From Halogeometricum sp. S3BR5-2 (GTDB lineage Archaea > Halobacteriota > Halobacteria > Halobacteriales > Haloferacaceae): 64,000 nt of DNA. Made by a program: the position numbers and the translations under genes. The notes beneath the pieces are model-generated. The model saw only the letters and a list, made by a program, of their open reading frames with translations, was not told where the DNA came from and made no database searches. The stretch spans positions 496,001 to 560,000 of the forward strand of contig NZ_JAMQOQ010000003.1 in NCBI RefSeq assembly GCF_031624635.1. Reading direction: 5' to 3'. The number at the start of each line of letters is the position of its first letter. The stretch's first letter is position 1. Below, piece by piece: positions 31,803-56,222 of the stretch.

Positions 31803-33011
31803 TTAACGGTTATCCAGCGTGTCTCCGTGTTCAATCCGTTCTCTCACATCCAGAATCAACTCGGGATCCAACTCAGATTGATATTCAAAGTACCGACCAC
31901 CACTTTCGCCTTTGTTCTGCTCACTCCGGCGGAGGAAGCCAAGCATATGAAGGTCAGAGAGATGGTCCTGAACGCTCTTCAGCGTCGTAAGGGGATCCGT
32001 TCCCCACGAATTTGCGACTGTTTGATATCGGTGCTGGATATCACGAGTCCGTGCAGGAGTGCGGCCGGCTGCTTCCAGTCGAGCGACACTCTCTAGAATA
32101 TATTGGGCGTGTTGTGTTTGATCTCGGATTCGAGTCGTAAGCTGCCCACGCTTAACGATATCTCGGGCCTCCTTGATATGTTGTTCTTGAACGCAATCAT
32201 CACCCGCTTTGAGTGCAGCCTCGGCACCCGTTCTCAGCAGATCGATTGCCTGTCTGGCGTTGCCCATATCTCTCGCAGCGATTGCTGCTGCGAGATTGAT
32301 TGCCGATTCATCGCATGCCCCCTCAACGAACGCACGTGCTGCTCTCGTCGAAAGGATGGTTTGGAGCTCGGGTGCATCGTACGGACTGAACGAAATTTCG
32401 GTCTCCATCAGCGTGTCTTTGACCTTCGGAGAGAGGCTTCGTCTGAACGTGTAGTTGTTGCTGATACCGATCACACCGATTTTGGATTGAGTAATATGCC
32501 CGTTCGATTTCGCCCGAGGAATTTCATAGAGAAGCGTGTTTGCATCGTCCAGATGGTCGATTTCGTCGAATACCATGAGATGTGTCCCCCCGACACGATC
32601 TAATCGCTTGTACAGTTCCTCAAAAGCGTCTCCAGTTCCGAGGCCGCGTTTCGGGAAGGGGCTCGCGTGATCAGGAAGGAGATCATTTACCAGCGTGCGA
32701 ACAACCATAAACAGCGTCTTGCCGTTGCAGTTCAACTCGTGAACAGTCAGTTCGTCGGCGCTATCTCGGGTGGTGACTTCGTCTTTGAGCGCAGTCATCA
32801 TGTACTTCGTGACGGCCGTTTTGCCCAGTCCCGCCTTCCCATAGAGCATGATATTCTCCGGGTCACGACCGAACAGAACATCCTGCAGTGCAAACCGGTA
32901 CTCTTCGATCTCCTCGTCTCGCTCTAGTATCTTCTCAGGTTGGTAATTCTCCGTGAGTACCTGCTTCTCATCGAAGATCGTGTCTGTGACGTTGCTGAAC
33001 GGCCCCGACAT
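31803..33011 (-). CDS. Orc1/Cdc6 replication initiator
   Basis: 402 residues. AAA+ domain with Walker A GKAGLGKT (58-65) and Walker B LMVFDEID (145-152), sensor-1 GVIGISNNYTFRRSLSP, lid domain with RDMGNARQAIDLLRTGAE, and a C-terminal winged helix (about 310-400) that would bind ORBs (LKSVQDHLSDLHMLGFL). Complete and probably active in melting and loading MCM at the local origin. A leaderless promoter (TATA on the minus strand at 33038-33046) drives it. Haloarchaea carry many Orc1 paralogues; this one belongs to an accessory neighbourhood rich in toxin-antitoxin genes. Confidence 0.95.
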   Translation of the reverse strand: MSGPFSNVTDTIFDEKQVLTENYQPEKILERDEEIEEYRFALQDVLFGRDPENIMLYGKAGLGKTAVTKYMMTALKDEVTTRDSADELTVHELNCNGKTLFMVVRTLVNDLLPDHASPFPKRGLGTGDAFEELYKRLDRVGGTHLMVFDEIDHLDDANTLLYEIPRAKSNGHITQSKIGVIGISNNYTFRRSLSPKVKDTLMETEISFSPYDAPELQTILSTRAARAFVEGACDESAINLAAAIAARDMGNARQAIDLLRTGAEAALKAGDDCVQEQHIKEARDIVKRGQLTTRIRDQTQHAQYILESVARLEAAGRTPARTRDIQHRYQTVANSWGTDPLTTLKSVQDHLSDLHMLGFLRRSEQNKGESGGRYFEYQSELDPELILDVRERIEHGDTLDNR

Positions 33012-38835: not shown

Positions 38836-39440
38836 CTGTTAGCGTGGTTGACTCGGGAGTGAATAGATGCTTCGTTCAACGCGATAGCTCCGCATCTCAA
38901 TTGGGCTTGTACTCTTCGTACCTTCCCACGATCCCGTCCGATCCGTGGAGTGACGACCGCTGATGACAGAACTATCCGAAGCAGGGCACGAGGACAGGGT
39001 TACACTCGTCCGAACAGCCAGGCTCGAGGTTTAAGTAGGGATTCAACGACTGACATCCGGGTGTCAAAGCCTCGACGAACGCGCTTCGCGTGTGCAACAA
39101 CGTTCGGTACCGTTCTCCAGAGGAATCATTCCTGAGTTCCCGTTCTGGCGGTTCTCCGTTGCCGCTGCATTCTCTCAGCGGGTCAAATCGAGTCTGTGAA
39201 ACGGATAAATGAGGCGTTGTCTTGAGAAAAGGTGCTTGTTACTACGGAACTCGAGGGACTCTCGAACGTCGTTCTCATCCTCTGACAGACTGAGTCCGAA
39301 TCCAAATTGAAGACAAACTTGTCCACTGATTTAGTGTGTAGACGCAGTGCTAAACGACTGGTTCGGCAACTGTAATATCTAGTTACAATTCTGCTGATAT
39401 CTGCGAATAGAATGCTATTTTCTGGTATTTTCTGTGTAAC
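38836..39440. other. 600-bp intergenic region
   Basis: No gene seen. The last 230 bases (39220-39440) are AT-rich. Short ORFs on both strands have no protein-like character. Confidence 0.4.
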
Positions 39441-39468
39441 TAAACACATATGTCTAAGAAAAAGAGGT

Positions 39469-40362
39469 ATGTCGAAGCACGGAGACACCGTCGCAGCGCA
39501 CAGTAGTCCCAAATCCTCTCAGCAGCAGTCCGTCTCGATCCGCGTCGTCGGTGCCGGGACCGTCGGACGCGCGACCGGGACCGTCCTCGCGGAGTGGGGC
39601 CACGCGGTCACGTTCGTCGACGTCGACGAGTCGGTCCGCGACGAGTTGGAAGCGGACGGCTACCAGACGGCGGCCCCGACCAGTTCGATCGACGCCGACG
39701 TCGTACTGATCTCGGTCCCGACGCCGTACGACCCCGAGGTGGGTCGCTACTCGCTGGAGTACGTCGAGGCCGCCGTTGAGACGATCGCCGAACAGAACTA
39801 CGAGGGCGTCGTCGCCATCCGAAGTACGGTCTCGCCGGGAACGACCGAGCGGTTGGCGAAACAGCACGACCTGAACCACGTCGCGATGGTCCCGGAGTTT
39901 CTGTTCGCTGACCGCGCCACGCAAGACGTTCGAGACGCGACCGAACTCATCATCGGCAGTAACTCCGAGCACGCCAGAGAGACCCTTCGAACGGTGTTCG
40001 AGCCCGAGCGGACCGCGATTATCACGCTCACCCCGACCGAAGCCGAATTCGCGAAGTTGGCCTCGAACTGCTTCGGGGCGACGAAGATCTCGTTCGCGAA
40101 CGAACTTTGGAGCACCGTGCGGTCGTTCAGCGAGATGACCGACGCGCAAGTCGACGCCCAGCGAGCCCTCTCGGCGTTCAGGATGATCTGCCCGTGGCAC
40201 AGCGCCGACATGGGGCTTGAAGGCGGGCGACCCTACGGGGGTGCTTGTCTCCCCAAAGACACGCAGGGCCTCCACGGCTGGGCCGAGGACACGGGCGTCG
40301 AAATGCCCACTCTGGGAGGCGTCATTGAGACGAACAAGATGATGCAACGCGATGACTATTGA
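39469..40362 (+). CDS. Nucleotide-sugar (UDP-glucose-type) dehydrogenase lacking the C-terminal domain
   Basis: 297 residues. Rossmann domain with VVGAGTVGRATG (26-37), then SVPTPYD, STVSPGTTE and PEFLFADRA, the central domain with NCFGATKISFANE and the catalytic Cys260 in YGGACLPKD. These are the residues that oxidise UDP-glucose to UDP-glucuronate. The chain ends 37 residues after the Cys, where normal enzymes have a further 110-150-residue domain that helps bind the UDP-sugar. Its last codons overlap the next gene. Whether the short form is active is unclear; a dedicated partner is possible. Its promoter may be the AT-rich taaacacata 20-28 bases upstream. Confidence 0.82.
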   Translation: MSKHGDTVAAHSSPKSSQQQSVSIRVVGAGTVGRATGTVLAEWGHAVTFVDVDESVRDELEADGYQTAAPTSSIDADVVLISVPTPYDPEVGRYSLEYVEAAVETIAEQNYEGVVAIRSTVSPGTTERLAKQHDLNHVAMVPEFLFADRATQDVRDATELIIGSNSEHARETLRTVFEPERTAIITLTPTEAEFAKLASNCFGATKISFANELWSTVRSFSEMTDAQVDAQRALSAFRMICPWHSADMGLEGGRPYGGACLPKDTQGLHGWAEDTGVEMPTLGGVIETNKMMQRDDY

Positions 40363-41774: not shown

Positions 41775-41790
41775 GGCACTGTCTAGTTAA
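41775..41790. repeat. IS6 terminal inverted repeat, left
   Basis: Perfect 16-base match in inverted orientation to 42491-42506. Confidence 0.95.
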
Positions 41791-42460
41791 CCTCCTCAAC
41801 TGGCGTTCGTCCGTCAAGCGCTTGATGCGGTCGTTGAAAATTGTAGTAATGAACGAACAGCACAAGCCACTGACGGACGCTCAGCCGACTGCCCACCCAC
41901 GAATTATGAAAGCGGTCGACTCGCATTTTGAGGGTATGAAACCACTTCTCAATCAGGTTTCGGTCGGTGTAGACGACCCGACCGCTCAGTCCTAATCGAG
42001 AGAGGGCAGTCCGATAGCCGAATTGATCGACCAGAAACACAGTGTCTTCACAATCGTGTTTCTCGATGACTCCGTGAAGGAACGCAGCCGCCGGGTCGGT
42101 GCCATGTCGCTTGAACAGCTGTACGTCGAGGAGTAACTTTGTGTCGAGGTCTATTGCAGCGTACAACCAAGACCATTCTCCATTGATTTTGACAGCGGTC
42201 TCATCGACAGCGACCCGCTTCGGCTGCGCCGAAGGCGGGTCTGAGACGCTGTCGGCCAGTCGGTGAACCCACTGGAAGATCGCCTGAAACGAGCGATCTA
42301 CGCCGATCAAGCGAAGTATCGCTTCTGTTTCCCTGAGTGAGAGACCGGCAGCGTGGAGGCGGACGGCGAACGCCCTGACGGGCGTCGCCGTCCGCTCCCG
42401 CTGCCAACATTCAAGCGTAGCCGTGTCTAAACTCTGCTTGAGCAGGTTTGAGAGTGGCAT
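41783..42460 (-). CDS. IS6-family DDE transposase
   Basis: 225 residues. N-terminal HTH region (LHAAGLSLRETEAILRLIGV), then the DDE core: Asp86 in VDETAVKINGEWSWLY, Asp145 in VFLVDQFGYR, Glu171 in RNLIEKWFHTLKMR, and YYNFQRPHQALDGRTPVEEV at the end. Undamaged, so the element may be active. The stop codon overlaps the left inverted repeat. Confidence 0.95.
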   Translation of the reverse strand: MPLSNLLKQSLDTATLECWQRERTATPVRAFAVRLHAAGLSLRETEAILRLIGVDRSFQAIFQWVHRLADSVSDPPSAQPKRVAVDETAVKINGEWSWLYAAIDLDTKLLLDVQLFKRHGTDPAAAFLHGVIEKHDCEDTVFLVDQFGYRTALSRLGLSGRVVYTDRNLIEKWFHTLKMRVDRFHNSWVGSRLSVRQWLVLFVHYYNFQRPHQALDGRTPVEEVN

Positions 42461-42984: not shown

Positions 42985-44130
42985 ATGAGAGTAGCAATGA
43001 TAAGCGACGATTGGTGGCCAGAGACGGGAGGTGGGCCAGTTCATGTGAGAGAACTGTCCTGCTCTTTAGCAGAACACCATGGCTGCGAGGTCGATATATT
43101 TACACGGTCACTCAAGAAAGATGGCGAACGCTACGACGAGGTAGAGGAATACATGTCCGGGGATGTTACAGTTTATCGTCTTCCTCCCTGTACGGAATAC
43201 TGGAATCCAGCTGGGCGAATCTCATCTCTGGTTACACCAATACCGAGACTACTATCCAATAGCTACGATATTATCCACGGACATACATTTCTTCCGGCGG
43301 TTCCGACTAAAATAGCTGGTGGTTTATCAAGTACTCCAACAGTGTTCACAGTACACGGTACCGCACTTACAACAGGAGTCGGGAGAGATAGCTCTGTATT
43401 CTCCGGAATCAAGCGACACATCGAAAAACAATTTATCCTTGAATTCAACTACGATTCTGTAATTTCTGTCAATGAGAAGCACGTAGATCTTCTTGATGAA
43501 TATCATTCTTCAGTTACTACAATCCCAAATGGTGTAGACTACGACAGATTCTCTGTTAGTGCCGATCGCACGATAGATGTTTTATACTTGGGTAGGTTAA
43601 CCGAACGAAAGCGCATATCCAAGCTGATTGAAGCTTTTAGTGAGGTGAACAAAGTACTCCCAGATGCAAATCTATGTATCGGCGGTGAAGGACCAAAAAG
43701 GACTGAACTCGAAAGTGAGGTTGAGACCCTCGGTCTAGAGAATTCAGTTACATTTCGGGGTCGAGTCCCGGACGAAGAGCTTCCTCAGCTCTATGGATCT
43801 GCGAAGGTATTTGTCCTACCATCAGCGTGGGAGGGCCATCCATTGACTTTGCTTGAAGCATGGTCAGCAGGAACGCCCGTTGTTGCGCCGTCAGTGGAGG
43901 GTATCGAAGAGTTTGTAGACCACGGGACAAATGGAGTCTTAACATCCTCAGTTGGAAAGGAAGAATTGTCAGCTGCAATCTTAATGCTGTTGAAAAATCC
44001 AGATTTGAGTCATAGGCTAGGGGATCAGGGGCGTGACCTCGTCAAGAACGAGTATACCTGGAAAATTGTTTCTGACCGAACCTACAACGCATATCAGCGG
44101 ATTAGCGAGGAGAAAACTTATTCCATATAG
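42985..44130 (+). CDS. GT4-family glycosyltransferase
   Basis: 381 residues. Opening MRVAMISDDWWPETGGGPVH with the Gly-rich loop, and donor-site half with VLYLGRLTERKRISKLIEAF, LCIGGEGPKR, then PSAWEGHPLTLLEAWSAGTP with the conserved E-x7-E. Expected to add a hexose to a lipid-linked or nascent surface glycan. Its 3' end overlaps the end of the phosphatase-superfamily gene on the opposite strand by 13 bases. Codon use is AT-rich, unlike the GC-rich genes left of the IS6 element. Confidence 0.9.
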   Translation: MRVAMISDDWWPETGGGPVHVRELSCSLAEHHGCEVDIFTRSLKKDGERYDEVEEYMSGDVTVYRLPPCTEYWNPAGRISSLVTPIPRLLSNSYDIIHGHTFLPAVPTKIAGGLSSTPTVFTVHGTALTTGVGRDSSVFSGIKRHIEKQFILEFNYDSVISVNEKHVDLLDEYHSSVTTIPNGVDYDRFSVSADRTIDVLYLGRLTERKRISKLIEAFSEVNKVLPDANLCIGGEGPKRTELESEVETLGLENSVTFRGRVPDEELPQLYGSAKVFVLPSAWEGHPLTLLEAWSAGTPVVAPSVEGIEEFVDHGTNGVLTSSVGKEELSAAILMLLKNPDLSHRLGDQGRDLVKNEYTWKIVSDRTYNAYQRISEEKTYSI

Positions 44131-45713
44131 CCAAGGTCAGCTAGCCGGTCCTCTACACTGGTGGTATCATCATCAGCCATCAATTCTTGATATTCACCGG
44201 CTAGATCGTCCCAACAGTCCGATTTGATATCATCTGAGAATGTTCTCAGTACCACTCCATCAGAGTTGCTGTCTATTGGAATACCAATTTCTGCAGCAAT
44301 AGTCTGAGACACATCATAAATTGTATACTCGTCTTGAATATCCAGTTCTCTATTGGATAGAAGAATTCCGTTTGGCTTGTGATTCTTGTGAGGATACTTA
44401 CGGAATTTGTTGAGCAAAGAACCACTCACATCATATCGGTAATCACGAGGAATGAGCAGTATATCGGGAGCCTCAGTTATATTTTCACCTTCATACATCG
44501 ATTCTCTAGACACTACGTCATCAAATACTAATTTGCCCTCCGGATCTCGGATATCACTCAGCTCGCTGATAAGCTCCGATCTTACCTGTTCGTAATCGGA
44601 CTCAGGTACTGCACCTGCTGGATCCCTTCCCTCTACATTTAGGTGAATACCCAGACTGTTGAAGTATAACTGATAGGCTATTGATTCTTTATGATCGACT
44701 ACCTCATTCTGTGCAGCAACTAGTGCATCCTCAGGGAGAATCAGCTCAATGAAACGAGTAAGACCAACAGAATCAAGCAATCGATGGACTCTTCTGGGGG
44801 AGATTCCCATAGTAGAAAGAGAATAAGCAGTCCGATCCACAAGAGATCCAACTAAAGACATTGATGGTTCTGAGTTTCCTTTTAATTTCCCCTCTTTCTC
44901 CTGCCGGAAATATTGTGGAGATCCCTCTTTTGTCTTACAATATCCTCTCTCTGAAAGCCAGGTATTCACGTAGAACGTCCAGTCATAGTCTCCCATTCCA
45001 TGGTCAGAAGCCACATAAACCGATGCTGAATCGTCAAGCGAAATTATATCGCCCACAAATCCGTCGATCTTTGAGAGTATCTGATTGATCTTGCCACGGT
45101 CCTCTAGGTCATGGAATATTGAGTCAGTAACCTGGAATTGGACAGCCAGTAGATCCCACTCATACTGGTTGTCTAGGAATCGAGCCATATCACGGCGGTT
45201 TCTGGCTACTGAAATATACTCTGAGACAACATCATCATCTTTGCCGTAATCGGGGTATATTCGGTATTTTCCATACTCTGACTCGTACTCTTCGCGGAGG
45301 CCCCTCGGGTAAAATGTCGTGTCTTCCCGAGCCAGATACCCTGGGACTAATGCTCCACTACCAAGACTCGGAGCTGGATGAGTGACCGGGAAATTAATTA
45401 TAATTGGTGTAAGCCCTTCCTCAGCCATGACGTCGTGGAGATACGGTGAATCAACATCATTTCGATTCACCAAACGCTTGTCATAGCCATCGCGAGTGTA
45501 GAAGTCAAAGACACCATGCTTTCCGGGATTTTTACCGGTAAGCATTGAAGGCCAAGCGCAAGGTGTCCACGGTGGATGGGTGCTCTTCAGGTCTACGCCC
45601 GTTGATTCAGATAGTGACGAGAGAACTGGCAACTCACCACTATCCATCAAACTGCCTATTTCACTGAATCCCAGACCATCAAGACCGATAAGTATTGTTT
45701 TTTGTCCAGACAT
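44118..45713 (-). CDS. Alkaline-phosphatase-superfamily phosphodiesterase-type enzyme (LADLGY group, 1 of 3)
   Basis: 531 residues. KTILIGLDGLGFSEIG supplies the first metal Asp. HPPWTPCAWPSMLTGKNPGK places Thr50 at the nucleophile site, as in nucleotide pyrophosphatase/phosphodiesterases, and YVASDHGMGDYDWTFYVNTW gives the second metal site. Similar to archaeal proteins labelled alkaline phosphatase family or type I phosphodiesterase. No signal peptide, so it acts inside, possibly moving a phospho-group between nucleotide-linked or lipid-linked intermediates. It ends RLADLGYME, like its two neighbours, and the next gene upstream is two bases away on the same strand. Confidence 0.8.
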   Translation of the reverse strand: MSGQKTILIGLDGLGFSEIGSLMDSGELPVLSSLSESTGVDLKSTHPPWTPCAWPSMLTGKNPGKHGVFDFYTRDGYDKRLVNRNDVDSPYLHDVMAEEGLTPIIINFPVTHPAPSLGSGALVPGYLAREDTTFYPRGLREEYESEYGKYRIYPDYGKDDDVVSEYISVARNRRDMARFLDNQYEWDLLAVQFQVTDSIFHDLEDRGKINQILSKIDGFVGDIISLDDSASVYVASDHGMGDYDWTFYVNTWLSERGYCKTKEGSPQYFRQEKEGKLKGNSEPSMSLVGSLVDRTAYSLSTMGISPRRVHRLLDSVGLTRFIELILPEDALVAAQNEVVDHKESIAYQLYFNSLGIHLNVEGRDPAGAVPESDYEQVRSELISELSDIRDPEGKLVFDDVVSRESMYEGENITEAPDILLIPRDYRYDVSGSLLNKFRKYPHKNHKPNGILLSNRELDIQDEYTIYDVSQTIAAEIGIPIDSNSDGVVLRTFSDDIKSDCWDDLAGEYQELMADDDTTSVEDRLADLGYME

Positions 45714-45715
45714 AG

Positions 45716-47143
45716 TTACATTTTGTAACCCAGATCCGCTAATTGACTCTCTAAATCACGCCCGAATCGACCGTCAACTTTCGGCAAGTCTCCAGGAGAC
45801 GTTTCTAACTCTTCAACTCTTTCTTGTAGCTCAGAGGAGGTAACTGGGTCTATTGGTAACCGTTCACGCGGATCATCTTGATAAGAGAATTGTACATCCT
45901 TGTCTTGGTACGGATAATTGATGCTTGCAGATTCAGCAGACTCAGAATGGTGTATCACCTTCTCGTCATCGTCTCGAATTGCAATAGTATGGCCTCGTTT
46001 GTCGAGGGTGTCAGATACAACCGGACTTGAAAGGCCATCATCATCTAAAAGAGATTCTTGGTCACTGCTCCCGGGGAAACTTCCAAGCGGCAAGTTACAT
46101 ATTTCAGCAATCAATTCATGGATCCAAGCAAGAGATACTGGAGTTTCTATACGAGAATTATTGTTGTTGGGGGTGCGTACGATCAGAGGTACGTGCAATA
46201 AGTCATCGTAAAGATGATGCGGAGGATGTCCATAGATTTCGTCTCGGTCAAACAGAACTTCCCCATGGTCGCCGGTGATTATCAGAATAGTATCGTTCCA
46301 CCTATCTTCTTTCTTAAGATATCTTATGATTTCGCCGATTTGATGGTCGACATAGCGAAGAGCGCTGTCGTACATTGTATCGTACTCTGGCTTGTGAATT
46401 CGTGCTGCACGGCTTGCGTCTGTTATGATCTGACCAAGAGTACCGTTGACAGCAGAAAGGCCTCCTGATCGAACCGTGCTGGGACGGATTGGTGCGTGAA
46501 GATCCATTAGATGTGTCCAGGCAAAGAAATCTGTTTGGTCTGTAGGAATGCTCTTACACAGTTCCTCCACAACCTCGTGACCAGAAATGGTCGGCCAGTT
46601 ACCTAATGTTTGCATGTATCTGTACGCAATCATCGGCAGCGAGTATGGAGTCAGAAGAGAGTCGTGGTCTCTCATTTTACTCCGGACTTGGTACATTAAT
46701 TCACCCCACCGAACCTTTTCAAGGTAGCTAACACCTTTGGGAGACTCTGTACCCTTGTTCAACCGTAGATTAGTAAACTGGTCAAATCCAATATCGAAAT
46801 TACGCTCTCTACTAAGATGTGGGTTAGTAAGCATAGCTACGGTCTCATATCCCAGCTCACCTAGCCAAGATGCCAGCGTGGGCGGACTGCGGATTGCTTT
46901 CCAAGTAACGTCGGAACCAAAGTAGCACCCATTGTGAGAGTGCTGTCCCGCAATCAGTCCAGGGATGGATTCTGTAGTATAAGGGCCAGTAGAATAAGCA
47001 TTTTCGAAGACTATGCTTTCGGATCTCAATCTGTGGAGGTTGGGGGTAGTGTATCGATGGTTGTCGTACACACGGTCATTCCGTAAACAATCGACACTGA
47101 CTAATACGATACTCGTCACAAACTCAGATAGATCTGATGCCAT
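45716..47143 (-). CDS. Sulfatase-like enzyme with Thr at nucleophile site (LADLGY group, 2 of 3)
   Basis: 475 residues. Metal-binding VLVSVDCLRNDRV, then STGPYTTESIPGLIAG, which occupies the active-site helix. Sulfatases need C/S-x-P-x-R there to make formylglycine. Here a Thr (56 or 57) is available instead, as in phosphoethanolamine and phosphoglycerol transferases. IITGDHGEVLFDR completes the metal site. No signal or membrane helix seen. Its stop is two bases from the start of the following gene, so the two are one operon. Ends QLADLGYKM. Likely a phosphodiesterase or phosphotransferase on glycan intermediates, despite the sulfatase fold. Confidence 0.78.
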   Translation of the reverse strand: MASDLSEFVTSIVLVSVDCLRNDRVYDNHRYTTPNLHRLRSESIVFENAYSTGPYTTESIPGLIAGQHSHNGCYFGSDVTWKAIRSPPTLASWLGELGYETVAMLTNPHLSRERNFDIGFDQFTNLRLNKGTESPKGVSYLEKVRWGELMYQVRSKMRDHDSLLTPYSLPMIAYRYMQTLGNWPTISGHEVVEELCKSIPTDQTDFFAWTHLMDLHAPIRPSTVRSGGLSAVNGTLGQIITDASRAARIHKPEYDTMYDSALRYVDHQIGEIIRYLKKEDRWNDTILIITGDHGEVLFDRDEIYGHPPHHLYDDLLHVPLIVRTPNNNNSRIETPVSLAWIHELIAEICNLPLGSFPGSSDQESLLDDDGLSSPVVSDTLDKRGHTIAIRDDDEKVIHHSESAESASINYPYQDKDVQFSYQDDPRERLPIDPVTSSELQERVEELETSPGDLPKVDGRFGRDLESQLADLGYKM

Positions 47144-47291
47144 TATAAACTGCGGGGGTTATAATGTTCATCAAGTAAAATTTTAGTTATGCGGTCTCAC
47201 CACCGAATTTCAATTTTAGGCAGTCATGGTGAGTAGTGACTAGGGTATTAGCACAGCTAGCGATAGGTTGTTATCAAACAAGTTCTAGAGT

Positions 47292-49064
47292 TCAGCTTAT
47301 CCTGTATAAATTAAATTCTCCGTTAGAGTAAATACGGTTTGTTTCCGTTTCTATATACTGATAGTCCAATTCGTTGAACCGGAGGCCATCATATAGCCCG
47401 ACGTTCCGCTGATAGCCATATTCCGTTGAGGCCAGCAGATACGGTCTAGTTGATAAATCTCTGAGATTCCGGTCGTTGAAGTGCGCTGGTACAAATCCAA
47501 TCCCCCGACGGTCAGGTGCGAGAGGTCGAAGAGATCCCTCCCCCCAGGCACGGTTTCCTTCTTCAAATCCACGTAGGGCAATTAACTGCCTTGATACATC
47601 AGTATTGACCGATGCTACTGATTGGTTGTCTCGATTCTTGAACGTCCACTCATATCCATCAAGTTGCGTTTCAGTAACGTGTGGTGCCGGTTGGTAGACG
47701 TAGGGTGACCGAAACATAACAGGTACGGATACTGCTGCACCGATGAGCAGGACTACGGTCAGTGTTGCGACTACGGACTGGTTGTCATAACGTGATCGCA
47801 AAATTGCGAAGTGCGCGACAACTAAAGGAGTACCAAGAGCAACCAGTGCGGCGGCGTAACGGACGACCTGTGGAAGATTCCCAGATCCGAGGTTAACTAC
47901 TGCTAATGCAATGAGTGGCACAAATCCGACAATATAGCGGAGTTGCATAGACTCGCGTGTTGGGAATTCAACATTGGGGCGAGAGTAATACTGTGCAAGA
48001 CGCCAGACAGAGACAGTCGTGATCCCGACGACAATGATACTAATAGCAATTTGAACACCGAGAGTACGAGCGAACAGTGTAACCAAATTACCACCAATAT
48101 CTTGGAATCCGGCTCCAGGAGTAGCTGACGAGATCCCCCCACGCGCTGCGTTGAGACCACTAATAAGTGCTGCAGCAGCGCCGACAAGTACCCGTCGTGT
48201 CACAAGCCAGTACCCCAAGACAATACTAGCAGCAGTAACTGCACTCAAAGTAGAGATGTGTCGATATCGGGAAAAGCCAGATATATTACTAGTAGCAATG
48301 AATATCAGTGAGAGAGCAACTGCAACAAGTGCCTGTTGTGGGTGAAAAAAGACGAGCCCAATGAGCGCAATGAGGAGAACGCTAGAGAAGCGTCTTTCCA
48401 GACCGCTTGATTGTGTAGTTCGGAAGAGGAGGTAGACAACAAAAAGGAGTATAAAAAGTCCAGCTACAGTTGCAATTGGTTGAAAGTTTGGTAGTCGAAC
48501 GACAATAATCGGTGTCGATAGTGTCGAAAACAGCAGCCCAATCGTTGTGCTGTGCCCGCCGTTGTCGTCGATGAATGATCTGGCAATAAGTGGAGTGGAG
48601 ACGGCAAACAACAGGTATGTAACTGGCATAGAGAGCAGAAACGCCCGTCGAAGCGGAATCTCTAGCACAGACGAAAGAGCGAGTGAGATTAAATGGAGCG
48701 ATGGGTATGGATTACGCTCAAGCGGATTGGACGTTGATAACATATCGATTGCCCACCCAAGGTGTTGGAGCGAATCTGCTTGCCCGTAGAAGTAGTACTG
48801 TCGGATGTAGGGGAGTGTGGCGATCAGCATGACCACGGTAAGAGCGAGTCCGGCAGCTGCAAGTCGCTGATAATAAGTACACAGATATAGTCCGCCGACA
48901 ATGCCGAGTGCCATTGATACGCTTGTGAATCCCCAAAACAATACTGGCGTCCCGGCGTAGACTGAAAGCTCGTATCCTGTAGAAGGAGACTCACCAGCGA
49001 CAATGGCTGCACTAGCCAAGCAGAAAAGGCCGACTGAGAAGAGAGCCTTCACTGATTTTCTCAT
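47292..49064 (-). CDS. Large polytopic membrane protein, GT-C or polymerase-like
   Basis: 590 residues with about 12 membrane helices up to residue 445, then an extracytoplasmic domain of about 140 residues (TQLDGYEWTFKNRDNQSVAS and on). The first long outside loop has YYFYGQADSLQHLGWAIDML, an Asp-containing loop of the sort used by GT-C transferases and Wzy-type polymerases. Haloarchaeal polysaccharide loci usually contain one such protein. A role as polymerase or lipid-linked-sugar-using transferase is inferred from position and topology; no firm family assigned. Confidence 0.7.
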   Translation of the reverse strand: MRKSVKALFSVGLFCLASAAIVAGESPSTGYELSVYAGTPVLFWGFTSVSMALGIVGGLYLCTYYQRLAAAGLALTVVMLIATLPYIRQYYFYGQADSLQHLGWAIDMLSTSNPLERNPYPSLHLISLALSSVLEIPLRRAFLLSMPVTYLLFAVSTPLIARSFIDDNGGHSTTIGLLFSTLSTPIIVVRLPNFQPIATVAGLFILLFVVYLLFRTTQSSGLERRFSSVLLIALIGLVFFHPQQALVAVALSLIFIATSNISGFSRYRHISTLSAVTAASIVLGYWLVTRRVLVGAAAALISGLNAARGGISSATPGAGFQDIGGNLVTLFARTLGVQIAISIIVVGITTVSVWRLAQYYSRPNVEFPTRESMQLRYIVGFVPLIALAVVNLGSGNLPQVVRYAAALVALGTPLVVAHFAILRSRYDNQSVVATLTVVLLIGAAVSVPVMFRSPYVYQPAPHVTETQLDGYEWTFKNRDNQSVASVNTDVSRQLIALRGFEEGNRAWGEGSLRPLAPDRRGIGFVPAHFNDRNLRDLSTRPYLLASTEYGYQRNVGLYDGLRFNELDYQYIETETNRIYSNGEFNLYRIS

Positions 49065-49261
49065 TACTGCTCCTGTGTCTTACTAGATTATTAAATCCTC
49101 GCTGCTGGTATAACTACAATCCATCCACTGAGGGAGCAGAATCCTATTAGATAATCTCACTTCTATTTTATTGGCTATTTATCTCTTGGACTAGCCTCTA
49201 CCCGTTCAAAAAATGGTATGATTGAAAAAAGACAAACGAGGGTAGATGTTCAGCAGCTGGC

Positions 49262-50683
49262 TCAGATATAGCCTAAGTCAGCTAGCCGCTGCTTAGAAGC
49301 AGCGCTCATCTCAGTCTCTTCTTTTGCAGTTCTGTCAAGTCGTATTCCTTCTTGATCCATGAGATCAGAGAGTTCTGAAACCACCTTGGGGTGATCACTG
49401 GATATCTCAACTGACTCGTCATCGCTATCATATAAAAGCAGGTCACCCGATTCTGACTCAATAAGTTTCCACTCTGCGGTCCGAACCGATCGTAGCGAAT
49501 TGTCAAACTTCTCATAGTCCGGGACTAACTCTGAAACTTCTTTTTTGAGGGACTCCATGTCTGGTTGTGGATGCCGATATTCTGCAAACACTGCGTCGCG
49601 ACCGTCTCCTTCTAAAATATCAAAATTCGATACAGTATCTGAGATTGGTCGACTAATTCCTGCGAGGTTCGCTACTGTTCGGTAAAGGTCTCGTAGTTCC
49701 ACGAACTTCTCCGATTTTCCTGAATCGACCTCTGGGGGGTAGTGTGCTATCAATGGAACGTTCAGTAGTGTACTGTGCAGAGAATACTGATGATCCATCA
49801 ATCCATGATCCCCAATATTCTCGCCGTGATCGCCAACAATGAACACCGCTGTTTCGTCGATCAGCCTTGAGTCGACTAATGCATCATAGAGACGAGAGAG
49901 GTGTTTATCAAGATAAGCTATTTCTGCTTTGTAGAGTTGCATTAAGGTCTCAAAGTCTTGCTTGGACATCTCAGCCGTTCCAGCAATATATTCCCACGGA
50001 TTTTGATTTATTGATTCGAAATCACTGCGAGTGACAAACTGGCTAACAAACTCCCCCGGCGGCTCATACGGGAGATGTGGTTCCAAATAGTTGATGAAGT
50101 AAAAAAACGGATCGGCGCTGCTTCGCTTGCGTAACCACTTAACTGTGCGGTCTGTCGTGAGTTTCGTGCCAAAGTCATCTGCTCCGAGAATCTTAGCGTT
50201 CACTGCGTTCGCGATAGAAAACGGAGCTTCACGAGTAGAAACGGCTCGAACTAGCTCTTTGAATTTCCCAACGCCACTTTGACGTGAGACCGAAGATAGG
50301 TCATGCCCCTTCCAGTAGCGGTCCCATTTCATGGAAAGATTACTAAACCCTCTTCCGAACCCAAATTCGCTACTTACCCAACTGTTACCACTAATGCCGA
50401 GTGTGTCATATCCTTCATTGTAAAGAAGCTCTGCAAGAGTAGGTGTCTCAGGGTTGAACTGCTTATGCCCCGCATGTGCTCCGTGGACAGAACTCCGTTG
50501 GCCGGTAAACATGGCTGCATGTGACGGCAACGTCCACGGCGCGTTTGCGTAGGCGTTTGTGAATGTGCAACCGTTATCTGCAAACTTTTTCAGCCCCGGA
50601 AGGTCCCCGGCGTTCAGCATTGATGTGACGGTATCCATCCGGGCCGTATCAAGCACGATGAGGAGGACGTTTGGCTGATGCAT
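49262..50683 (-). CDS. Sulfatase-like enzyme with Thr at nucleophile site (LADLGY group, 3 of 3)
   Basis: 473 residues. NVLLIVLDTARMDTV, then NAPWTLPSHAAMFTGQRSSV with Thr51 in place of the formylglycine Cys/Ser and Ser-His in place of Pro-x-Arg. The metal site is AVFIVGDHGENIGDHG, with NYLEPHLPYEPP as a typical substrate-side motif. Start at ATG 50683; the longer frame upstream has no fold. Common in haloarchaeal glycan loci under the label sulfatase. The catalytic box argues for phosphate-type chemistry or another nucleophile use. Ends RLADLGYI. Confidence 0.82.
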   Translation of the reverse strand: MHQPNVLLIVLDTARMDTVTSMLNAGDLPGLKKFADNGCTFTNAYANAPWTLPSHAAMFTGQRSSVHGAHAGHKQFNPETPTLAELLYNEGYDTLGISGNSWVSSEFGFGRGFSNLSMKWDRYWKGHDLSSVSRQSGVGKFKELVRAVSTREAPFSIANAVNAKILGADDFGTKLTTDRTVKWLRKRSSADPFFYFINYLEPHLPYEPPGEFVSQFVTRSDFESINQNPWEYIAGTAEMSKQDFETLMQLYKAEIAYLDKHLSRLYDALVDSRLIDETAVFIVGDHGENIGDHGLMDHQYSLHSTLLNVPLIAHYPPEVDSGKSEKFVELRDLYRTVANLAGISRPISDTVSNFDILEGDGRDAVFAEYRHPQPDMESLKKEVSELVPDYEKFDNSLRSVRTAEWKLIESESGDLLLYDSDDESVEISSDHPKVVSELSDLMDQEGIRLDRTAKEETEMSAASKQRLADLGYI

Positions 50684-50999
50684 GCAATTGAGACTCTTCT
50701 GCGAGCTTGTATTTGTATCTATGTAATGAAAGATACGGCATGTGATACGAACGATGTTGACTTGATAGTGTAGATACGCTAAGATGAGACGTTGATATTT
50801 TGATATAGACAATACTACAATTTGCTGAGGAGCATTCCAGTCAGAAGTAAATGTATTCAACGTGATAAGGTTACAAGGCTCCAGACAGCGGAGTTGGTCC
50901 TCCACTCAAGACTGTCCCCTATGAAGATGACCGGTGAATGGTTGACGCACAGGTCAGTTCTATCAAGTCTTATTATCCTGTAGGGTGCACAACGCCCCA

Positions 51000-52181
51000 A
51001 TGCAGGTTCTTTTCATAGCGAACAAGCTGAACATGGCAGGAGCAGGTTCTAACGTTAGTTTGGATACTATAGCCCGCGGTCTCTCTTCTCGGGGACACCA
51101 GGTAGATATCCTAACCACAAACGTAGATATGAAAAATGTTCTCCCAGACTCCCATCCATACTCTGTGAAGTCACTAAGATCCACAACCTTTGAGGATATA
51201 CTGAAAGAAATCAGAAATGAGATTTCATCTGGACATCAGACACCGGACATCATCCATGTATTTGCACCGATAATTTCGCCGATTCTAGGCTACTACCGGA
51301 TGCATGGTGGTCAGATTCCAGTCGTTGGTCGTTTGAATTCGTATACGATGTTCTGCACAAACAATAGTCTTCTAGACGGAGAATGTCACAAAAATTGTTC
51401 TATGACAGACAAAATCCGTCATGATGACTCGTCGACAAAGAAAAAAATTGCTAAGTTACCCTTCTATGCGTACTCTGCAGCATCTTTCCCCAGCAAAGCC
51501 AACTACATCGATAAATACTTTGCACAAAGTCCCTCGATTTCAAAGTATTATCAAGAAGCAGGCATTGAGAGTGAACGAATCTGTGTTATATCTAACTTTT
51601 ATAATGAATCTTTCTATCAGGGACCGCAAGTGAGACCAACAAGAGGAGACTGGAGTCAGTTTAATATTCTCTACGTAGGTCGCCTAGAGCCGGAGAAAAA
51701 CGTTAGTCTTTTACTCAGAGCAGCTTGTGAGCTTCCACTTAATCATACAATGCATATTGTGGGAGATGGCTCTGAATACAAAAAGATACAGAATATGGTA
51801 TCTGAATTAAATGTTCAAGACAAGATTGCACTTCACGGATGGGTTGACCACGATAAGCTACCAGCCTATTATTCCAATTCCGACATCTATGTCCACCCTG
51901 GGCAGTGGCCAGAACCGTCGGGACGGGCAGTATTAGAAGCATTACAATATGATTGCCCCATTGTTGCGTCCGATATCGGTGGGCCTCAATGGATTAAAGG
52001 AGATGCTGGATCCACATTCAAATCTAATGACTGCTCTGATCTAACCGAAAAAATATTGTGCCTTTCGCAGGACAAGGTAAAATACCAAGAAAAAAAGGAG
52101 AAGTGTTCAAATAGATTACAGGATTTCTCACCAAAAACAGTAATGGATAGAATAGAACAAGAATACAGATCACTAACGTAG
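51000..52181 (+). CDS. GT4-family glycosyltransferase
   Basis: 393 residues from ATG 51000 (a GTG five codons up is possible). MQVLFIANKLNMAGAGSNVS at the start, then donor half NILYVGRLEPEKNVSLLLRA, MHIVGDGSEYKKI, and SDIYVHPGQWPEPSGRAVLE with the catalytic-site E-x7-E. An unusual Cys-rich insert near residues 119-137 (MFCTNNSLLDGECHKNCSMT) could bind metal or be structural. AT-rich gene within the island. Confidence 0.9.
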   Translation: MQVLFIANKLNMAGAGSNVSLDTIARGLSSRGHQVDILTTNVDMKNVLPDSHPYSVKSLRSTTFEDILKEIRNEISSGHQTPDIIHVFAPIISPILGYYRMHGGQIPVVGRLNSYTMFCTNNSLLDGECHKNCSMTDKIRHDDSSTKKKIAKLPFYAYSAASFPSKANYIDKYFAQSPSISKYYQEAGIESERICVISNFYNESFYQGPQVRPTRGDWSQFNILYVGRLEPEKNVSLLLRAACELPLNHTMHIVGDGSEYKKIQNMVSELNVQDKIALHGWVDHDKLPAYYSNSDIYVHPGQWPEPSGRAVLEALQYDCPIVASDIGGPQWIKGDAGSTFKSNDCSDLTEKILCLSQDKVKYQEKKEKCSNRLQDFSPKTVMDRIEQEYRSLT

Positions 52182-52319: not shown

Positions 52320-53309
52320 TCAGCTGGAGGTGGCTATAAGCGGCTCATACCAATTCTGGTTATCCATATACCAGTTAATAAATTCCTGCACTCCCTGACG
52401 GATTCCATACTCGGGATCGTAACCTATGAGCTGTTCTGCCTTTGAAATATCTGCGTGGGTATGTCTCGAGTCACCATCTCTTGCATCTTCGTGAATGATA
52501 TCCACATCGGTGTCTGTTTCAGATACCACATATTCTGCGAGTTCTCGAATGGATATATTATCACTGGACCCAATATTCAGGGTCTCTCCCCCGACTCCTT
52601 CCTGATGTAGGAGTCTCATGTTCGCATCAACAATATCTTGAATATACGTGAAATCACGAGTTTGTTTTCCATCACCATATATGACTAGAGGTTTACCGTT
52701 AACACATCGTGAGACAAAGTTTGATATTGCCATGTTCGGGCGCATTCTTGGACCATATACTGTGAAGTATCTCAGATTGACGGTATTCAGTTGGTAAAGT
52801 TCGTTGTACAAGTTGCAATAGTGCTCACTCGTTAGCTTAGTGATTCCGTAGGGGCTCTGGGGTTCGTTTGGATGTTGCTCATCATATGGTAGATAGTGGG
52901 GAATACCATATACAGACGATGATGAGGCATGAACAAACGTTTGGACATCATTCTTTCTAGATTCTTCTAAGAGATTTAGTATTCCTTCAACGTTGTTTCG
53001 TTCATATTGTACCGGATTGTCGACGCTAGGCCTAACTCCTGCCTTAGCTGCCTGATGATATACCACCTCTATCTGGTGGTTATCGAAAACGTTGCTTATT
53101 AGCGTCTTATCTGTAGTCGATCCGTTGATGACGGTTACCTGATCGCTGCTCTTCTCCTGGCATTTCGCAATATTTTTGCGCTTAAGACTTAGGTCATAAT
53201 ATGGATCGAAGTTGTCTAATACCAGTACGTTGGCCCCATCATCAACAAGCTTTTCCGTCAGATTTGAACCAATGAACCCTGCTCCCCCAGTTACTAAGAC
53301 GGTCTCCAC
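52320..53309 (-). CDS. NAD-dependent sugar epimerase, UDP-glucuronate 4-epimerase-like
   Basis: 329 residues from GTG 53309 (TTG at 53321 possible). Extended SDR with TGGAGFIGSNLTE, the glucuronate-epimerase-type motif DNFDPYYDLSLKRKNI, catalytic Ser in HASSSSVYG and Tyr-x3-Lys in SPYGITKLTSEHY. It would convert UDP-glucuronate to UDP-galacturonate, or a related pair. Fits with the dehydrogenase at 39469 as the supply of a uronic acid donor. UDP-glucose 4-epimerase is the alternative. Confidence 0.85.
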   Translation of the reverse strand: METVLVTGGAGFIGSNLTEKLVDDGANVLVLDNFDPYYDLSLKRKNIAKCQEKSSDQVTVINGSTTDKTLISNVFDNHQIEVVYHQAAKAGVRPSVDNPVQYERNNVEGILNLLEESRKNDVQTFVHASSSSVYGIPHYLPYDEQHPNEPQSPYGITKLTSEHYCNLYNELYQLNTVNLRYFTVYGPRMRPNMAISNFVSRCVNGKPLVIYGDGKQTRDFTYIQDIVDANMRLLHQEGVGGETLNIGSSDNISIRELAEYVVSETDTDVDIIHEDARDGDSRHTHADISKAEQLIGYDPEYGIRQGVQEFINWYMDNQNWYEPLIATSS

Positions 53310-53497
53310 AATAGCACACAAAGTTCACTGAATACATATAAATCTATCCGGTGAGTTTATTCATAATCTATTTTTCTACACACCACGATAAAATATGATG
53401 GACCGGCGTTTTGATATCTTCTAGTGAAAACAGGATATAACGTACACTGAGAATATATTCCGCAATAATCTAATAACAGGCATCAGTACACCTCCTT

Positions 53498-55027
53498 GTG
53501 AGTTCAATTGCTGATAGTTTAGGTGGACTGGCACGAAGTGCTGCCATTATATTCTTTGGGACTGCAATTGGACAGATAGTGGCTCTCATCGGCGAATTAT
53601 TGATTGTTCGGAATTTAAACCCAGGTGTGCTAGGGAGATATGCATTTACATATTCATTAGTGTCTGCAATTGGTAGTCTTCTCTTGCTGGGTGTTCATGA
53701 AGGGGTGACACGGCAACTTTCTTCTAAAGACGATCACAAGATGGATACCGACCTTATTCGGAGTGGCTACCTCATAGTACTACTCACCAGTATAGTAGTC
53801 ACGGTTGGCCTTTTCGCTGTTCGCACTCCTCTTGCGTCATTTTTCAATATTCCGCACTTAGAAACCACTATTCCCCTTTTCCTCCCATTTCTCTTTGTAT
53901 ACCCGCTTTCCCGAATATCTCTTGCCGTTTTGAGAGCCGAGCAGCATTCTTGGGCAGCCACCGCTTCCCAAAACTTGGTTACTAAGCCATTGGCATTCGG
54001 TTCATTATTGGTGATTTTGCTTTTAGGTTACCCTGCTCTGGGGTCGGTGGTATACTGGGTAGGCGTCCCATTTATATGCTTTTTGATATCTGGTTACTTT
54101 GTAGCTAGAAAGTTTCCGGTCATCACTCTCTTTGGCAAACTCCCGAATCAAAAAACTGTTTCAGAGCTGTTTTCTTTCTCTTGGCCTCTCGCAATTGGGT
54201 CCTTCCTCTTAATATTTTTATCGCAGATGGATATCCTAATGATTGGATTCTTCTTAGACTCAACCTCTGTCGGATTATATAGGTCAATCCAACCATTCAA
54301 GTCAGCAATTATGTTCGTTCTAGGCGCTTTTACGTTTTTGAACCTGCCGCTCGTAACAAATCACTTTGAGTCGGGTCAAATCGTACACCTGCGAGAAACA
54401 TATATAACATCCACAAAATGGATCGTTGCACTGACCTTGCCGTATATTCTATTTGTATCTGCGTTTGCTGAAGATCTAGTGAAAATTTTCTTCGGATATG
54501 ACTATGTTCCTGCTGCTCTTCCACTGTCAATCCTAGTTGCAGGTCTATCATTTAGGGTCTATAGTGGACTTGATGGAGATCTTGTAAAAGCAATTAATCG
54601 GCCTAAGATTGAACTTTACTCTTCTTTTGTTGGGTTGTGTGCCAACTTTCTGTCCAACTACTTGCTGATACCGCAATTCGGTATAGTCGGAGCCGCTGTT
54701 GGAACTGTGCTAGGATATGCTACATACAACCTGGTAGAAGTCGTTTGGATCTATAACCTAGTAGGCGCATCACCGATCTCCTGGGTCACAGTAAAACAAA
54801 GCTTGCCACCGATCTGCATCACAGTACTAATGATATTTTTGATAGGCCCGTCATCATCTCCCGTACTGTTGGCTATTGCATTAATCATTATCTCACTGAC
54901 TGAGTTATGTTCAATGATATTTTTGGGTTGTCTTTCAGAGGTTGACGTGGAGTTGATAAAGCGAGTTGATAGTCGTATCAATATAGACCTCAGCCGGCTA
55001 ATCAATCATGCTGAAAAACGGATATAA
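53498..55027 (+). CDS. Polysaccharide flippase (Wzx/MATE-like)
   Basis: 509 residues, GTG start, about 14 membrane helices, opening GGLARSAAIIFFGTAIGQIV as in the polysaccharide-transport MVF/Wzx family. It contains the conserved FSWPLAIGSFLLIFLSQMDI and the repeat of the inverted half (GLSFRVYSGLDGDLVKAINR). It would move lipid-linked oligosaccharides across the membrane before polymerisation or attachment. Last gene of the AT-rich block; the next gene 43 bases on is GC-richer. Confidence 0.9.
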   Translation: MSSIADSLGGLARSAAIIFFGTAIGQIVALIGELLIVRNLNPGVLGRYAFTYSLVSAIGSLLLLGVHEGVTRQLSSKDDHKMDTDLIRSGYLIVLLTSIVVTVGLFAVRTPLASFFNIPHLETTIPLFLPFLFVYPLSRISLAVLRAEQHSWAATASQNLVTKPLAFGSLLVILLLGYPALGSVVYWVGVPFICFLISGYFVARKFPVITLFGKLPNQKTVSELFSFSWPLAIGSFLLIFLSQMDILMIGFFLDSTSVGLYRSIQPFKSAIMFVLGAFTFLNLPLVTNHFESGQIVHLRETYITSTKWIVALTLPYILFVSAFAEDLVKIFFGYDYVPAALPLSILVAGLSFRVYSGLDGDLVKAINRPKIELYSSFVGLCANFLSNYLLIPQFGIVGAAVGTVLGYATYNLVEVVWIYNLVGASPISWVTVKQSLPPICITVLMIFLIGPSSSPVLLAIALIIISLTELCSMIFLGCLSEVDVELIKRVDSRINIDLSRLINHAEKRI

Positions 55028-55070: not shown

Positions 55071-56222
55071 ATGCAAATCGGGTTTGTCTCGAACGTTGTA
55101 TATCCCTTCGTCACCGGAGGCGCACAGAAACGTATCCACGAAATCGGAACACGCCTCGCCGACGAAGGACACGAGATCACAATCTACGGTCGCCACTACT
55201 GGGATGGTCCCAAACAGGTCAGGTACGGAAACCTCCGTCTCCAAGCAGTCGCTCCGAGAGCCGACCTCTACGTTGAGGATAGACGATCCATCTCCGAAGC
55301 GTTAGACTTCTCGACGCGAGCGCTCGGTCCGCTCTCAAAGCGCCTCCGAAACAACGAACACAATCTCGTCGTCGCCTCCGTTTTCCCGTATTTCCCCGTT
55401 CTCTCCTCAAAGCTCGCCGCACTCGGAACAGACACGCCTGTCGTAACGACATGGCACGAAGTGTGGCAAGACTACTGGGAGGACTACCTCGGTACGCTCG
55501 CCCCGTTCGGAAAGACAATCGAGCATTTCACGGCCCGCGTGCCACAGTATCCGATCGCTGTTTCGGGGATCACAGCGGACCGACTCGCCGAGATCGGGCC
55601 GAATAGAAATCGCATCAAAGTCGTACCGAACGGGATCAACGTCGAGAAAATCCGAAACGCGCCACTCCCTGAAGCGAACGGTACGAAAAGCTACGACGTA
55701 CTCTTCGCCGGTCGCCTCATCGCCGACAAGAACGTTTCACTGCTTTTGGACGCCTTCGACGCTGTCGCCGAACGGCACGATGCGACACTGGGAATCATTG
55801 GCGACGGACCGGAGATGGAGCGGCTGCAACAACAAGCCACGAATCTAACCCACACCAACCGTGTCGAGTTCCTTGGGTTCCTCGAAGAGTACGAAGACGT
55901 CCTCGGCCACATGCGCGCTGCACGGGTGTTCGCCTCGCCGTCGACCCGCGAGGGATTCGGAATCACGTTCGCCGAGGCGATGGCCGCCGACTGCACCGTG
56001 ATCGCCGCAAAGCATCCCGAGTCCGCAGCGAGCGAAGTAATCGGAGACGCCGGGTACGTTGCCGAACCGACAGTTGATGCGATCGCAGAGCGATTGGATG
56101 CCTCCCTGAATGGTGAGCGCCCGTCCCAGGAACCACTCGAACGTGCCAGGATATATGACTGGGACGCCGTCGCCGAGCAAGCCGAACAGGTGTACGAACG
56201 AGCCGTCACCGGAACCTGGTAA
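55071..56222 (+). CDS. GT4-family glycosyltransferase
   Basis: 383 residues. MQIGFVSNVVYPFVTGGAQK at the start; VLFAGRLIADKNVSLLLDAF, LGIIGDGPEMERL and PSTREGFGITFAEAMAADCT in the donor half. Base composition is back to high-GC codon use (gccgac- and cgcctc-type codons), so it belongs to the resident DNA, while its 43-base spacing to the flippase suggests joint transcription. Closest in type to the GT4 at 1-942. Confidence 0.9.
   Translation: MQIGFVSNVVYPFVTGGAQKRIHEIGTRLADEGHEITIYGRHYWDGPKQVRYGNLRLQAVAPRADLYVEDRRSISEALDFSTRALGPLSKRLRNNEHNLVVASVFPYFPVLSSKLAALGTDTPVVTTWHEVWQDYWEDYLGTLAPFGKTIEHFTARVPQYPIAVSGITADRLAEIGPNRNRIKVVPNGINVEKIRNAPLPEANGTKSYDVLFAGRLIADKNVSLLLDAFDAVAERHDATLGIIGDGPEMERLQQQATNLTHTNRVEFLGFLEEYEDVLGHMRAARVFASPSTREGFGITFAEAMAADCTVIAAKHPESAASEVIGDAGYVAEPTVDAIAERLDASLNGERPSQEPLERARIYDWDAVAEQAEQVYERAVTGTW

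Follow-up and report, generated by a model that had tools for sequence, protein, structure and literature searches.

What do sulfatase-like proteins without the formylglycine (FGly) motif do in a haloarchaeal glycan gene cluster, and what is the peptide that they share at their C-termini? The question is raised by three genes of the alkaline-phosphatase (AP) superfamily, here called P1, P2 and P3, in a window of 64,000 nucleotides (the whole stretch of DNA that was analyzed) from the 4.66 Mb genome of a haloarchaeon. Between about 42 and 56 kb of the window the GC content falls from approximately 60% to 42-49%, and this low-GC stretch is a glycan island in which a Pfam scan placed three GT4 glycosyltransferases, a sugar epimerase/dehydratase and a flippase alongside a polytopic membrane protein. 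The features of the island, in window coordinates, are:

42985-44130, plus strand: GT4 glycosyltransferase (Pfam scan)
44118-45713, minus strand: P1, PF01663-type alkaline-phosphatase-superfamily protein, 531 aa, T50 at the nucleophile position
44127-44144, minus strand: LADLGY tail of P1, residues 524-529
45564-45566, minus strand: Thr50 codon of P1, nucleophile position
45716-47143, minus strand: P2, PF00884 protein without the FGly motif, 475 aa, T56 at the nucleophile position
45725-45742, minus strand: LADLGY tail of P2, residues 468-473
46976-46978, minus strand: Thr56 codon of P2, nucleophile position
47292-49064, minus strand: polytopic membrane protein, 590 aa, between P2 and P3
49262-50683, minus strand: P3, PF00884 protein without the FGly motif, 473 aa, T51, S1-sulfatase fold
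49268-49285, minus strand: LADLGY tail of P3, residues 467-472
50531-50533, minus strand: Thr51 codon of P3, nucleophile position, in W-T-L-P-S-H
50985-52181, plus strand: GT4 glycosyltransferase (Pfam scan)
52320-53321, minus strand: NAD-dependent sugar-nucleotide epimerase/dehydratase (Pfam scan)
53498-55027, plus strand: Polysacc_synt-type flippase (Pfam scan)
55071-56222, plus strand: GT4 glycosyltransferase (Pfam scan)

The minus-strand genes follow one another in the order P3, membrane protein, P2 and P1, and the gap of 2 nt between P2 and P1 makes co-transcription of these two genes probable. P3 was started at the ATG at 50683, its longest open reading frame beginning at 50905. P1 matched PF01663 (E 7e-34), and P2 and P3 matched PF00884 (6e-37 and 6e-38, respectively), while the 590-aa membrane protein had no match in Pfam or NCBIfam; a homologue of the latter is present in another locus (L127). 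Neither a hydrophobic N-terminus nor a transmembrane segment was found in P1, P2 or P3, and since the former is missing the three proteins look cytosolic, as judged from sequence. Outside these genes, an IS240-type DDE transposase (41783-42460, minus strand) lies where the GC content changes on the left side of the island, and a 316-aa UDP-glucose/GDP-mannose dehydrogenase (39412-40362, plus strand), whose gene overlaps a GT2 gene, gave no match to the C-terminal UDP-binding domain and may be truncated. The window also holds an Orc1/Cdc6-type replication initiator (31803-33011, minus strand), and an origin is possibly close by.

The preliminary description of this DNA had reported proteins ending in RLADLGYME (P1), QLADLGYKM (P2) and RLADLGYI (P3), and the reading frames, coordinates and tails were reproduced exactly. 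Alignment also confirmed threonine at the nucleophile column (PPWT50PCAWPS in P1, PYT56TESIPG in P2 and PWT51LPSH in P3), and the pattern C/S-x-P-x-R was absent anywhere in the three proteins. With threonine at the site and no such pattern, P1-P3 are not FGly sulfatases, as had been suspected. The likeness to the S1 FGly carbohydrate sulfatases (6hr5, BT1596 5g2u and FA22070 6hhm) consists of the PF00884 assignment of P2 and P3 and, for P3 (model with mean pLDDT 87; metal-site residues D12, D285 and H286), of the S1 fold over residues 2-450, whereas the missing C/S-x-P-x-R, the Thr nucleophile and an extra C-terminal tail outside the aligned fold set these proteins apart.

The tail was defined as a C-terminal L-x-x-[LM]-G-Y no more than six residues from the end, and P1-P3 all carry it. 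By composition, a protein would have this pattern among its last residues with a chance of about 6e-5, and three independent proteins would all have it with a chance of about 2e-13; P1-P3 descend from a common ancestor, however, which makes conservation the more telling measure. The L, L, G and Y columns of the tail had entropies of 0-0.2 bits, whereas the linker before them had about 3 bits. Among PF00884 relatives taken from the source genome and 99 genomes of its family, the tail was present in 81/82 proteins with Thr or Ser at the nucleophile position and in 0/16 with Cys (Fisher p 2e-17, with related sequences counted as independent), and a wider set including bacteria gave 91/100 and 0/17, respectively. 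Across the neighborhood survey, which covered about 1 Mb of fetched loci, 98 of the 99 tailed open reading frames belonged to the AP superfamily: the tail ended 67/94 PF00884-type, 18/18 Agl30-type and 13/13 P1-type proteins, and 1/2537 other reading frames. An alignment-driven scan with closer sequences (alignment A4) extended the tail to bacterial relatives in 21/27 loci, all from metagenome bins (Nitrospirae, Chloroflexota, Planctomycetota, Krumholzibacteriota and others); viral contigs scanned with P1 yielded no relative. Because the tail sorts with the nucleophile and occurs in bacteria, its distribution in sequences marks it as an old sign of the non-FGly branch and not of archaeal glycan loci.

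In 19 of the 20 loci around relatives of P1-P3, which were chosen by similarity to these proteins, glycosyltransferases lie beside the tail genes, often with two to five tail genes together, and the other tailed loci of the survey (L185-L191) had glycosyltransferases in 7/7 cases. At least one further tailed gene was found in all 10 loci of close P1 orthologues (54-65% identity). The culturable haloarchaeon Haloferax marisrubri SB3 also has genes of the P1 and P3 types (L227). Loci centered on no-tail relatives, nearly all of the Cys type (L203-L222), had no glycosyltransferases in 20/20 cases. A specificity of the tail for glycan islands was nevertheless rejected by two other tailed groups: a core gene with the motif WTLPVH that recurs across genomes of the family (L183, L192-L202; glycosyltransferases nearby in 0/12 loci), and Thr-type genes close to a Cys-type sulfatase outside glycan islands (L184, L212-L218; 0/8). 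This Cys-type sulfatase carries C-T/S-S-A-R in place of C-x-P-x-R. Thus, the tail is confined neither to Archaea nor to glycan loci, although its enrichment at the latter is real; a lack of confinement to glycan loci had been named in advance as part of an outcome that would count against the preliminary description. In bacteria, P1-type and P3-type tailed genes occur together with flippases and glycosyltransferases (L261, L291 and L300). Classical sulfotransferases are encoded in some bacterial loci with relatives (two in L291, two in L274 and three in L275), which is consistent with a sulfated polymer and silent on the role of the AP proteins.

Structurally, the tail lies beyond the sulfatase fold: alignments with solved S1 sulfatases stop at about residue 450-463 of P3, and the C-terminal extension that follows has a variable linker leading to an invariant peptide. 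In the P3 model the tail forms a short helix (residues 461-469, pLDDT 73-77) after that linker; in the P1 model, which was built on seven sequences, a very-low-confidence stretch leads into the tail helix, whose pLDDT is about 50. Membership of the tail in the general sulfatase fold, the other part of the outcome that would have spoken against the earlier description, was rejected in that form, given that the S1 alignments end before it and Cys-type relatives are untailed. The tail is a real, strongly conserved and separate-looking short element for which docking is possible. That it is a general haloarchaeal sorting tag was rejected, as only one of the 2537 non-AP reading frames has it. A docking peptide would show such a variable linker with an invariant end, as would a segment packing back against its own enzyme, and the data do not distinguish between them. 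It is a tentative and unlikely idea that LxxLGY is a dedicated short linear motif linking three AP-fold transferase subfamilies (the PF00884 Thr/Ser type, the PF01663 type and the Agl30 type) to a partner in glycan assembly that they share, and marking a sulfation machinery independent of the known ATP sulfurylase and APS kinase enzymes. No description of the tail was found in the non-subscription papers searched.

Among haloarchaeal enzymes of this type, only Agl30 and Agl31 have been tested, and they offer the best approach to the function of P2 and P3. In Halobacterium salinarum, VNG1056C (Agl30, membrane) and VNG1057C (Agl31, soluble and cytosolic) are AP-superfamily sulfatase-like proteins of the aglB cluster that sulfate the N-linked tetrasaccharide at uronic acids; their deletions lose most N-glycan sulfation, and expression in Hfx. 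volcanii adds sulfation (PMC11980604). The +80 Da shifts in Hfx. volcanii alone do not separate sulfate from phosphate. VNG1063H, which belongs to this cluster too, did not affect N-glycan sulfation, and possession of the tail and fold is therefore no guarantee of function.

One Halobacterium genome in our set (G108) shares its bacteriorhodopsin sequence with Hbt. salinarum at 100% identity. Its glycan locus L155 encodes a 475-aa AP protein, a GT2, a GT4 and then two further AP proteins, a soluble one of 459 aa and one of 327 aa whose N-terminus includes a hydrophobic segment. Each of the three AP proteins carries a terminal LxxLGY and lacks C/S-x-P-x-R at the site. This order resembles VNG1063H-VNG1062G-...-VNG1057C-VNG1056C, which by gene order and topology makes the locus a good candidate for the Agl30/Agl31 cluster; it is a candidate, not a proven match, because the type strain and NRC-1 of Halobacterium salinarum differ in a glycan region (PMC10264941). 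Tailed AP genes were also found in the aglB neighborhood in 6/7 other Halobacterium genomes. P3 aligned with the 459-aa candidate Agl31, as assigned by gene order, over its full length and tail to tail (E 5e-22, 24% identity), and P2 matched the same protein with E 8e-11. About 4.7 kb to the left of the window, the source genome encodes a closer homologue of the 459-aa protein (E 4e-87), and an Agl30-type gene lies close to it. Additionally, the fold neighbors of P3 include 6hhm (Z 35.5) and 5g2u (Z 34.6), the structures named for Agl31 and Agl30 (PMC11980604).

The likeness to Agl31 and Agl30 thus comprises an AP-superfamily core, a glycan-gene cluster, a soluble protein (Agl31), the best folds and, in the candidate genes, a non-FGly site with the LxxLGY tail; the combination of a non-FGly Thr/Ser site with a soluble protein, as expected of an Agl31-like enzyme, was found in our proteins. 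They differ in that P3 is 24% identical to the candidate Agl31, in that P1-P3 are not at aglB and in that P1 belongs to another Pfam family. By analogy, P2 and P3, and less surely P1, may be cytosolic metal-dependent AP-fold glycan sulfotransferases resembling Agl31, a reading to which we assign a probability of about 0.5 and in which we infer sulfate as the group transferred. The threonine in place of the sulfatase formylglycine would take a sulfuryl group from an activated donor, forming a sulfo-threonine intermediate, and would pass it to a sugar hydroxyl, probably on a uronic acid, of a dolichol-linked glycan before flipping. Haloarchaea are known to carry sulfated uronic acids on dolichol phosphate (PMC9943897). 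The LxxLGY tail on its variable linker would serve either in docking to a common partner or in shutting the active site of the enzyme itself.

The donor is the least secure step in the sulfotransferase model. ATP sulfurylase (PF01747) was found in 0/10 genomes searched, including G108 and the source genome, CysD reached its cut-off in 0/17 genomes, and APS kinase matches (PF01583) in 22 genomes were mainly weak, partial P-loop matches, none of them convincing. Either distant enzymes make APS/PAPS or another donor serves. Distant CysD/PAPS-reductase-like reading frames, far under the CysD cut-off and in some genomes in tandem, were seen in 17/17 haloarchaeal genomes searched, for example at C1:788200-789853 of the source genome (outside the window) and C2:275255-275806 of G108; non-canonical sulfate activation by these is possible.

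The choice of threonine also suits phosphoryl chemistry, as LtaS, EptA and the NPP enzymes use a Thr nucleophile. The preliminary description had proposed phosphoryl or phosphodiester decoration. In such a scheme, which would follow the example of LtaS and EptA, a phospho-threonine intermediate would place phosphate, phosphoglycerol or something similar on the glycan. We consider this rather unlikely for the set as a whole, and the evidence divides between the proteins. P1, which has marginal sequence similarity to P2 and P3, has all seven NPP-type positions, with ligands D12, D197, H201, D237, H238 and H445 and the nucleophile T50 (kept in 18-19/19 sequences of alignment A2 and 7/7 of alignment A7); we take the equivalence of H445 to the NPP/PhnA ligand from family knowledge. 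A search of the PDB with the single P1 sequence found no true relative, whereas the P1 profile aligned with phosphonoacetate hydrolase through D12, T50, D197-x3-H201 and D237-H238, with T50 opposite the catalytic threonine. The nearest folds to the P1 model (mean pLDDT 75) are nucleotide pyrophosphatases and phosphonoacetate hydrolase (2gsn, 1ei6 and 3t02; Z about 28-29.5), from which P1 differs in its longer C-terminal part with a disordered linker and LxxLGY tail and in its glycan-island setting. Given this complete di-metal site, a phosphoryl step is a fair option for P1, which may hydrolyze a phosphodiester or nucleotide product or form a phosphodiester. The D-x3-H second metal site is absent at that place in P2 and P3 (P3 has no D-x3-H at all), P3 folds like S1 carbohydrate sulfatases, and no gene for CDP-glycerol or a similar donor was found among the Pfam-scanned genes of the island. 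LtaS, EptA and MCR share the AP fold, Thr nucleophile and transferase logic, but these phosphoglycerol/phosphoethanolamine transferases are membrane-anchored with the active site outside, whereas P1-P3 have no N-terminal transmembrane domain and P2 and P3 scored far under the NCBIfam cut-offs. The haloarchaeal relatives that have been tested are sulfotransferases (PMC11980604), which makes phosphoryl chemistry a weak reading of P2 and P3; by analogy sulfate transfer is the better guess for both.

Most members of the AP superfamily are hydrolases, as are the nearest folds to P1, and all three proteins could instead be phosphodiesterases or phosphatases that edit precursors such as nucleotide or dolichol products, with no decoration. 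Glycan islands have two to five different tail genes each, which suggests substrate-specific decoration instead, and the tested relatives are transferases; such trimming is therefore distinctly unlikely. Removal of sulfate by FGly-independent sulfatases, to which the S1 carbohydrate-sulfatase fold of P3 lends itself, is highly improbable: threonine cannot yield formylglycine and cytosolic proteins in biosynthetic islands are poorly placed for this reaction. For Thr-type PF00884 proteins, sulfatase status needs evidence and should not be assumed (PMC5066984).

Altogether, proteins of this kind carry the database label of sulfatases, which remove sulfate; for many of them, the evidence favors the reverse reaction. 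Which donor supplies the sulfate in haloarchaea that lack canonical ATP sulfurylase and APS kinase thereby becomes a testable question, and it is the most interesting loose end. In archaea and bacteria alike, the non-FGly branch can be told from true sulfatases by a Thr/Ser nucleophile together with an LxxLGY end, and this sequence mark would aid the prediction of sulfated surface polymers from genomes.
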